64,000 nt of DNA from an uncultured Muribaculaceae bacterium (lineage in GTDB: Bacteria > Bacteroidota > Bacteroidia > Bacteroidales > Muribaculaceae). The notes below the pieces were generated by a model, which did no database searches, was not told where the DNA came from, and worked only from the letters and a program-made list of their open reading frames with translations. The stretch spans positions 62,001 through 126,000 of the forward strand of contig CALUMX010000003.1 in NCBI GenBank assembly GCA_944321875.1, read 5' to 3'. The position numbers and the translations under genes are program-made. This document shows positions 44,297 through 59,807 of this stretch, in pieces (positions within the stretch are counted from its first letter, which is position 1; each line of letters opens with the position of its first letter).

Positions 44297-44388
44297 TATC
44301 TTTGAATAAGATAGGATGCGCCTCGACATAGCCAAACTTGAAAACTTTGTTTTCCGTTTGTCTCTGTGCTCGGCTTTCACTATCTTTG
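44297..44388 (+). repeat. Promoter-bearing repeat, locus 1
   Basis: Two TATCTTTG boxes exactly 84 bases apart (44297-44304, 44381-44388). The second has TTTG (44357-44360) and the 20-base spacer TCTCTGTGCTCGGCTTTCAC, preceded by the inverted repeat GAAAACTTTGTTTTC (44340-44354). Same family as 47636, 58353 and 59152. It ends 38 bases before the omega-amidase-like gene. Confidence 0.75.
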
Positions 44389-47635: not shown

Positions 47636-47695
47636 CAAAGATAGTGAAAGCCGAGCGCAGAGACAAACGGAAAACGAAGTTTTCAAGTTTATCTA
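47636..47695 (-). repeat. Promoter-bearing repeat, locus 2
   Basis: On the minus strand: inverted repeat GAAAACTTCGTTTTC (47670-47684), TTTG (47664-47667), spacer TCTCTGCGCTCGGCTTTCAC, TATCTTTG (47636-47643). It differs from locus 1 at one spacer base and drives the symporter gene. Confidence 0.75.
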
Positions 47696-47710
47696 TGCCG
47701 CACCGGGCGA

Positions 47711-47869
47711 TTCCCCGCTTGTAGGGGCGTACCCCCGGTGCGCCCGCTTCCCCGGCAATCCGAAATGACAATGCGAAAATTATCCTTGCGTTTTTCATTT
47801 ACCGCAAAATTCATTTCACAACTTTATCGGAGCGGGCGCACCTGGGGTACGCCCCTACAAGCCGGGGAA
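47711..47869. repeat. Pair of inverted REP-like repeats
   Basis: The 443-base gap 47610-48052 has no gene. Arm 1 (47711-47748), with core GTAGGGGCGTACCCCCGGTG, and arm 2 (47831-47869) are reverse complements with about two differences over 38-39 bases, 82 bases apart. Each arm holds a smaller palindrome GGGGCGTACCCC. They resemble widespread extragenic palindromes and could fold into one long hairpin. Confidence 0.7.
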
Positions 47870-56360: not shown

Positions 56361-56390
56361 TTGCCAATTCGGAAAATGTTCGTACCTTTG
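56361..56390 (+). promoter_or_regulatory. Promoter of SRP RNA / tRNA-Thr
   Basis: TTG (56361-56363), 19 bases, TACCTTTG (56383-56390), 5 bases before the expected RNA start. Confidence 0.75.
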
Positions 56391-56395
56391 CAGCC

Positions 56396-56492
56396 GGGTA
56401 AGTCCTATACGGCCAGCTCCCTGCGAATTCCCCCAGGTCTTGACCGAAGCAAGGGTAGTAGGTCGTAGCGGCGCGATATAGATAGCTTGCCC
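56396..56492 (+). ncRNA. ffs: Signal recognition particle RNA, small bacterial type
   Basis: A 97-base RNA whose ends pair (GGGTAAG with CTTGCCC) and whose tip holds the conserved Ffh-binding layout CCCAGG....AGCAAGGG. The tip sequence TCTTGACCGA aligns with the usual TCC-GGAA-GGA, so the tetraloop would be UGAC, fitting the alternative URRC class instead of GGAA. It has its own promoter and lies 4 bases before tRNA-Thr. The RNA joins Ffh to guide membrane-protein synthesis. Confidence 0.85.
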
Positions 56493-56496
56493 ACCT

Positions 56497-56570
56497 GCCT
56501 CTTTAGCTCAGTTGGCCAGAGCACGTGATTTGTAATCTCGGGGTCGTTGGTTCGAATCCGACAAGAGGCT
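56497..56570 (+). tRNA. tRNA-Thr (TGT)
   Basis: A 74-base cloverleaf: acceptor GCCTCTT/AAGAGGC, D arm GCTC..GAGC, anticodon stem CGTGA/TCTCG with loop TTTGTAA (anticodon TGT), T arm GTTGG TTCGAAT CCGAC, discriminator T. CCA is not encoded. The middle pair of the anticodon stem is U-U, an unusual mismatch. It is co-transcribed with the SRP RNA. Confidence 0.95.
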
Positions 56571-58352: not shown

Positions 58353-58459
58353 TTTGTTTTTGCGCTCGCCTTTCACTATTTTTTCATAAAATAGGATGAG
58401 GCTTGGCATAAAAAATCAAGCAAGCTTGTTTTTTCTGCGCTCGCCTTTCACTATTTTTG
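58353..58459 (+). repeat. Promoter-bearing repeat, locus 3, two copies
   Basis: Two diverged copies 75 bases apart: TTTG (58353-58356), spacer TTTTTGCGCTCGCCTTTCAC, TATTTTTT (58377-58384); and spacer TTTCTGCGCTCGCCTTTCAC before TATTTTTG (58452-58459). The second is preceded by inverted repeat CAAGCAAGCTTG (58417-58428). The last -7 box ends 7 bases before the DUF554 ATG. Confidence 0.7.
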
Positions 58460-58466
58460 CATTACT

Positions 58467-59150
58467 ATGTTAGGAACAATTGTAAACACTATCTGCATTA
58501 TGGCTGGCAGTACGCTGGGAAGTCTGGCGAAACGGGCCATCAAACCGAAATATCAGCACGCTCTTTACTATGCGATGGGTCTGGCGGCTTTTGTGCTGGG
58601 TATCAATGCCGTTGCTTCCCATCTTCCCGACAGTCCTTATCCGGTGCTGTTTATCGTGAGTCTGGCGGTCGGTACGCTTATCGGAACGGTGCTGGATATT
58701 GCGGGACGGTTCAACCGGTTGGTAAAACGTTTCTCCAAATCCAATTTGGCGGAGGGGCTTTCGACCGGTATTTTGCTTTATTGCATTGGTACGCTGTCAA
58801 TGGTGGGACCGATTATGAGCGCACTCTACGGTGACAATACCTATCTGTTCACGAATGCAACGCTCGATTTCGTAACGTCGACGGTGCTTGCCAGCACTTA
58901 CGGCATAGGTATGATTCTGGCGGCTCCTGTGCTGTTCCTGTTTCAGGGAAGCATCTATCTGCTTACTTCGTTGGCGGGTGACGTTATTCCGCAGGAACTG
59001 ATGAGTGAGATTTCGATTGTCGGCGGTGTGCTGATTGCCAGTTCTGGACTTGCCATTCTTGACATCAAGGATTGCAAGACGCTCAACATGCTTCCGTCGC
59101 TTTTGGTACCGCCTGTGTTTTTTATACTGAAGCATCATTTGGCATTCTAA
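58467..59150 (+). CDS. DUF554 family membrane protein
   Basis: A 227-residue inner-membrane protein with about seven helices, starting MLGTIVNTICIMAGSTLGSL, typical of DUF554 (YdfK-like). Other family phrases are LFIVSLAVGTLIGTVLDI, LSTGILLYCIGTLSMVGPIM and SIVGGVLIASSGLAIL. It is probably a transporter or channel; no substrate is known. The gene is preceded by two promoter-repeat copies and followed at once by a tandem array of the same family. Confidence 0.92.
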   Translation: MLGTIVNTICIMAGSTLGSLAKRAIKPKYQHALYYAMGLAAFVLGINAVASHLPDSPYPVLFIVSLAVGTLIGTVLDIAGRFNRLVKRFSKSNLAEGLSTGILLYCIGTLSMVGPIMSALYGDNTYLFTNATLDFVTSTVLASTYGIGMILAAPVLFLFQGSIYLLTSLAGDVIPQELMSEISIVGGVLIASSGLAILDIKDCKTLNMLPSLLVPPVFFILKHHLAF

Positions 59151-59151
59151 A

Positions 59152-59351
59152 TTTGCCATTGCTCTCGATTTGCACTACTTTGGATAAGACAGGCGGCATC
59201 TCGGCAATGCCAAATACTTAAAACTGCGTTTTAAATTTGCCATTGCTCTCGATTTGCACTACTTTGGATAAGACAGGCGGCATCTCGGCAATGCCAAATG
59301 CTTAAAACTGCGTTTTAAATTTGTCATTGCTCTCGATTTGCACTATCTTTA
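59152..59351 (+). repeat. Tandem 84-base promoter repeat, locus 4
   Basis: Three -33 boxes (TTTG at 59152, 59236, 59320) recur every 84 bases, the first two units nearly identical. Each has the 20-base spacer CCATTGCTCTCGATTTGCAC (one change in the third) before TACTTTG, TACTTTG and TATCTTTA. The inverted repeat TTAAAACTGCGTTTTAA precedes the second and third -33. The array ends 24 bases before tsaE. Confidence 0.85.
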
Positions 59352-59375: not shown

Positions 59376-59807
59376 ATGAAAACTATAAAGATTGCGTCGC
59401 TGGAGGCTATCTCTGCTGCGACTGACGAGTTTATCGAGGCTATGGGCGACTATACGGTGTTCGCTTTCTATGGCAAGATGGGTGCGGGCAAGACTACGTT
59501 TATCAACGCTCTCTGTGCGCGTCTTGGCGTGGAGGACATCACGAATTCGCCGTCGTTCTCGATTATCAACGAATACCGCTCTGCCACTACCGCTGAGTTG
59601 ATTTATCACTTCGATTGCTACCGCCTGGAAAGCATCGACGAGGCTTACGACATCGGCGTGGAGGACTATTTCGACTCAGGTGCTGTGTGCCTTATCGAAT
59701 GGCCGGAACGCGTGGACGAGCTGTTGCCTGACGATACGGTACGCGTAGACATCGTGGAGGATGAGGCCGGCGTACGCACGCTGACGCTGACTTTCCCTGA
59801 CGAATAG
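59376..59807 (+). CDS. tsaE: tRNA threonylcarbamoyladenosine synthesis ATPase TsaE
   Basis: A 143-residue P-loop ATPase ([15 protein letters not shown], residues about 31-45) with the family phrases [20 protein letters not shown] and CLIEWPERV. TsaE drives the TsaB-TsaD complex that makes t6A37 in tRNAs reading ANN codons. Length is normal. The array of promoter repeats precedes it, and a small Imm17-like gene follows after 5 bases. Confidence 0.96.

Follow-up and report, generated by a model that had tools for sequence, protein, structure and literature searches.

A palindromic repeat ending in a promoter box precedes many genes of a Muribaculaceae bacterium and is probably a small mobile element

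The direct repeat found upstream of tsaE in the 64,000-nucleotide stretch of Muribaculaceae DNA analysed in this work (the window) is one member of a large family of short palindromic units that end in a promoter box and recur before genes of many functions. From the arrangement of these units we consider it probable that the repeat is a small non-autonomous palindromic mobile element, which inserts after the -7 box of a promoter and supplies a new box at its own end. Its distribution in the order Bacteroidales is patchy, and it is found at different genes in each species.

The array before tsaE occupies positions 59148-59351 of the plus strand, between a DUF554 gene and tsaE, and consists of a half unit followed by two 84-bp units in direct orientation (TRF: 2.4 copies of 84 bp, 97% alike). 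The exact 84-bp period reported in the sequence-only reading was confirmed, given that TTTG, 20 nt and TA recur at 59152, 59236 and 59320 with the spacer kept. The left-most unit (59148-59182) is truncated to its right half, the stop codon of the DUF554 gene forms its first three bases, and one base is missing from its box, TACTTTG (59176-59182). The second unit (59183-59266) is a full hairpin with its left arm at 59183-59206 and a TACTTTG box at 59260-59266; its minus strand folds as DNA with -17.6 kcal/mol (z -5.2). The third unit (59267-59351), also a full hairpin, has its left arm at 59267-59290, matches R1 from 59265 to 59351 (98.1 bits) and ends in the box TATCTTTA (59344-59351), which carries one mismatch to TAnnTTTG and is followed 24 nt downstream by the tsaE start codon. 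Since the first two boxes lack one base of the TAnnTTTG motif, only the last one is promoter-like, and this predicted promoter is expected to serve tsaE (59376-59807, plus strand; Pfam TsaE, 4.4e-37). The earlier claim that every unit carries a full promoter is therefore not sustained at this array; what keeps the spacer constant is its place in an arm of a hairpin, and not the maintenance of three promoters. Directly after tsaE, a small ORF at 59813-60037 matches Pfam Imm17 (immunity protein 17).

When the array was used as a blastn query, 43 matches were obtained in its own genome, and a covariance model built from 31 units recovered at least 122 units, distributed over about 84 sites; these counts rest on the searches and on the sequence stretches read, and the 84 sites were read with their flanks. 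A short left-arm pattern gave 95 matches in the genome, against 0 for a reversed-pattern control. Given that copies of the unit lie at over 80 further places in the genome and that the control gave none, the tsaE array is far beyond chance, and these many copies support the idea that the unit was copied as a block, its sigma-ABfr-like box included. The units are about 63-88 bp long and stand head to tail in 1-3 copies per site in this genome and up to 5 elsewhere, most sites having one full unit; the copy number thus differs between sites.

Within the window, a single unit at 58383-58459 (plus strand), with a AAGCAAGCTTG-type hairpin, has its box, CTATTTTTG, at a distance of 7 nt upstream of the DUF554 gene (58467-59150, plus strand; Pfam DUF554, 2.4e-66), which has co-oriented units on both sides. 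No match to this gene was found in 25 of the 28 relatives searched, all three congeners included, and the gene may have been gained or lost via recombination between the flanking units (58383-59351). In another genus a unit also lies directly upstream of the DUF554 gene (L211). Two more single units are present: one at 44303-44388 (plus strand), with a TATCTTTG box immediately adjoining its left arm, precedes an ORF that by eye is nitrilase-family-like, and the other, at 47636-47725 (minus strand) and with a degenerate left arm, precedes a minus-strand ORF that by eye resembles a membrane transporter. The window also includes the Bacteroidales small SRP RNA at 56389-56570, with a tRNA gene directly after it (Rfam).

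The position of the units relative to genes is highly regular. The last box lies upstream of an ORF start at 77 of the 84 sites, at a median distance of 25 nt and within 70 nt at 69 of them, and at one further site it precedes a tRNA-like sequence. At one locus (L178:1970-2158) two units stand back to back, one facing each of two divergent genes. The downstream genes, which except for tsaE and the DUF554 gene were named by eye from the sequence, are diverse and include dxr, argS, recR, uvrC, rbfA, speA, dnaX, aroA, rsmI, purB, dnaB and others. The sigma-ABfr promoter consensus has TAnnTTTG at -7 and TTTG near -33 (PMC7366714); TAnnTTTG is intact in 58 of 67 last boxes of this genome and TTTG stands 19-21 nt before the box in 41 of 63 last units, with the difference that ordinary sigma-ABfr promoters are not part of a repeated hairpin. 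In contrast, only 11 of 32 internal boxes are intact (Fisher p = 2.9e-7), and for this reason only the last box looks selected.

These counts bear on the proposal that the units are promoters in series, each of them a working promoter, with a copy number that tunes the expression of tsaE. The strict 84-bp spacing, the TTTG-N20-box arrangement shared by all copies and the existence of arrays of 1-5 units agree with it, and in other Bacteroidales most internal boxes are TATCTTTG, but the pattern that selected those loci demands TATCTTTG. Nonetheless, the internal boxes of the tsaE array are one base short, and across this genome internal boxes are mostly degraded whereas last boxes are mostly intact, so the proposal is unsupported here and we regard it as very unlikely. 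Within an array the hairpins are much alike (median identity 0.93, vs 0.62 between arrays), with some mixed arrays. One observation counts against the mobile-element reading: in several of the GAT-type arrays, internal junctions share an identical one-base loss (TACTTTG). Simple decay does not explain this recurrence, which would call for units that spread as preformed dimers or for a process that homogenises them.

Each unit forms a single hairpin with the layout ATAAGATAGG-..GC-xyz-TCGGCA-(arm)-loop-(arm)-TGCnCTC-x'y'z'-TTkCAC-TATCTTTG. The outer stem pairs AAGATAG with CTATCTT, the second strand being the promoter box itself; inward from it follow a GC step, a three-base step and TCGGCA/TGCnCTC with a side bulge, and the innermost stem and the loop differ between arrays. 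As in MITEs, the ends are terminal inverted repeats, AAGATAG and CTATCTT, and they show compensatory changes. The pairing was evaluated with an arm alignment fixed by the conserved anchors and not by structure, and the covariation counts are per sequence, uncorrected for relatedness. Among 82 distinct arm pairs, 94.9% of positions are paired in register vs 36-54% when the arms are slid, and none of 2000 sets of shuffled partners reached the value of the true partners (at most 83.6%). When arms were swapped between arrays, 0 of 5000 permutations paired as well in this genome, and other Bacteroidales behaved likewise. Up to three Watson-Crick types occur at one pair (GC 44, TA 19, CG 16), and a free base of the -7 box covaries with its mirror arm 80 bp upstream (GC 54, AT 10, TA 8). 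In the congener G003, 10 of 18 arrays have both members of the outer pair changed (AAGATAAG with CATTATCTT), and RNAalifold found compensatory changes at 9 of 17 hairpin pairs.

A stable and covarying hairpin could act at the RNA level, in the 5' leader of transcripts started upstream, as an attenuator, stabiliser or insulator. However, the main transcript would start from the last box, 3' of the last hairpin, and would thus lack it; moreover, the hairpins in the sequences read have no U tract after them, no Rfam family matches the repeat, and in 107 of 120 units it is the minus strand that folds better. A role of this kind seems to us barely credible. The better folding of the minus strand would fit a single-stranded DNA substrate, with mixed data from mismatches: AC outnumber GT oppositions 28 to 5 at the hairpin base, but stand at 12 to 18 in the variable stem.

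This folding bias is one of the features expected of a REP/REPIN-like element moved on single-stranded DNA by a Y1 (RAYT/TnpA-REP) transposase. The repeat is, in addition, palindromic, intergenic and present in high copy, the complementarity of box and left arm recalls, by analogy, the guide/target pairing of IS200/IS605 (PMC6006769), and the Bacteroidetes have a TnpA-REP subclass, 2.6, with "atypical" flanking structures (PMC6006769). Against this, the genome richest in units, that of the window, lacks any Y1_Tnp; Y1 genes occur in 11 of the 23 genomes with units and in 35 of the 56 without, with no positive association; the congeners have five Y1 genes, none with a unit closer than about 1.5 kb; the foot of the hairpin is ATAAGATAGG, with no GTAG/GGAG tetranucleotide; and the AC-over-GT excess of the hairpin base does not extend to the variable stem. 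As a required mover the Y1/RAYT transposase is largely refuted by its absence from this genome and by the lack of a positive association in 79 genomes, and we judge movement by such an enzyme highly improbable.

The left ends of the arrays suggest where the units insert. We examined 33 arrays whose left arm is intact and which are not directly preceded by a recognisable unit or insertion sequence (IS); the motif TAnnTTTG+N was found exactly at the left junction in 21, and in 0-1 of the 33 at each of 24 other offsets. The -7 boxes that stand on both sides of these 21 arrays may reflect either a duplication or a target. For some of the left boxes (CACTATCTTTG), an origin as leftovers of older units, and not as native promoters, is conceivable; several others (TATATTTG, TAATTTTG, TATGTTTG and TAACTTTG) are unlike unit remnants.

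For the mobile element that we favour, these junctions suggest the following sequence of events. A unit would insert immediately after the -7 box (TAnnTTTG) of an existing promoter, and, because the unit itself ends in a -7 box, the promoter of the gene would remain at its former distance and the host would be little harmed. The 3' end of the unit would in turn be a new target, and as each unit ends in a target, head-to-tail stacking would result. Local duplication would then make the units of one array uniform, and the older internal boxes would be free to decay after a newer unit takes over; at tsaE, transcription would be expected to start from the last box only. A more specific version, in which selfish elements throughout the Bacteroidales target the -7 box through the complementarity of the left arm (AAGATA) and the box (TATCTT), re-create their target and are moved by a non-Y1 enzyme, is possible, and we put it forward tentatively. 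No transposase or recombinase was found linked to the units, and the regions read revealed no autonomous partner and no left and right halves split around a gene. Two stray sites considered as an autonomous version, with a gene between the hairpin halves, proved to be a decayed unit or a normal unit. The array had no blastn match in plasmid and phage records, and a pattern match in a viral contig was rejected as a unit because it has no right half.

Units were detected in all four genomes of the genus, with 28-73 in each of the three congeners, and in 23 of 79 genomes of the family, which belong to 10 of 30 genera. The junction pattern was found at 44 loci in Prevotella, Prevotellamassilia, Barnesiella, Alistipes, Paludibacteraceae, Muribaculaceae and others, and the type strain of Prevotellamassilia timonensis carries units. 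The presence of a unit differs at orthologous sites: for ten array-bearing genes in the three congeners, a co-oriented unit was found in 0 of 30 orthologous upstream regions, and the same search at tsaE orthologs gave 0 of 26. In G001, recR has a nearby unit in the opposite orientation. Many of the congener orthologs have, as judged by eye, ordinary TTTG boxes at a similar distance before the start. The congeners are too diverged for their intergenic regions to be aligned, with about 70-90% amino acid identity in most of the genes compared, and no clean empty site was seen.

This turnover weighs on a further explanation, that the repeat is a cis-regulatory cassette in which a DNA-binding protein reads the asymmetric hairpin (the TCG / nCTC side bulge) and co-regulates roughly 80 genes. 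The orientation and the position next to the promoter are fixed at nearly all sites, and the hairpin is strongly kept, with invariant blocks; however, the genes have diverse core functions with no visible theme, and the element is kept at 0 of the 10 orthologs tested in the three congeners. We consider such a cassette unlikely.

About a dozen contig ends of the genome fall at units, and several of them carry the ends of insertion sequences. Five contig ends (L034, L147, L167, L157 and L168) have an IS with ends ATTCTTATGG... and ...AAATCTAAGG, which appears to lie within the CTATCT/TTnnATAAG junction of units (two left ends and three right ends); the assembly lacks its body, and the IS was not found in 297 genomes of the family. 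At L027 and L031 the apex of a hairpin appears to be interrupted by another IS, and the two contig ends share a 9-bp duplication, ACTTGCGTT. A third IS, with the end ATGAATGTCC, lies at a unit junction (L149 and L151), with a possible 9-bp duplication, TTTTTGATA.

Elements of this kind, i.e. short interspersed palindromes, MITEs and mobile promoters, are already known. In the literature searched we found no published description of this repeat, of the promoter-box boundary on both sides or of the stacking, an absence that is not proof. Palindromic and uvrC-linked candidate RNAs have been described in Bacteroidetes and Prevotella (PMC8040213), and these might overlap with the repeat. If the proposed mobility is true, a repeat that forms the promoter anew at its end would have replaced dozens of core-gene promoters in many gut and rumen Bacteroidales, with each species affected independently; this would represent promoter turnover without loss of function and a safe-site strategy for a selfish element, and the units would be a hidden cause of assembly breaks. 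The covarying hairpin together with the box provides a search handle for the mover and for changes in array copy number.

The Correia elements of Neisseria are small, dispersed and non-coding, and bring a promoter to downstream genes; the units described here resemble them, and putative mobile promoters, in these properties. To our knowledge, neither uses the -7 box as an insertion point, whereas in our case this box appears to be the insertion point and is re-created by the unit. The attC sites of integrons are long imperfect hairpins with variable arms, a conserved structure and a side bulge, all of which the units share; in contrast, the units have neither gene cassettes nor the GTTRRRY core, and form single arrays before core genes. 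REP/REPIN elements with RAYT (TnpA-REP) are likewise short intergenic palindromes of high copy number that vary between relatives and are IS targets; that REP elements of other bacteria are also IS targets is cited in PMC8040213. The units are two to four times longer than most REPs, stack head to tail and nearly always end in a gene-facing promoter box, and they have no GTAG/GGAG foot and no association with Y1. The BrickBuilt MITE of Porphyromonas gingivalis (PMC4596501), also from the Bacteroidales, is intergenic, contains tandem direct repeats and has been proposed as one of the "putative mobile promoters", which are also cited in that paper. The complete BrickBuilt element is about 1 kb long, with 23-nt repeats, a leader, a tail and IS5-type terminal inverted repeats (PMC4596501), whereas here each 63-88 bp unit is itself a hairpin and ends in the box.
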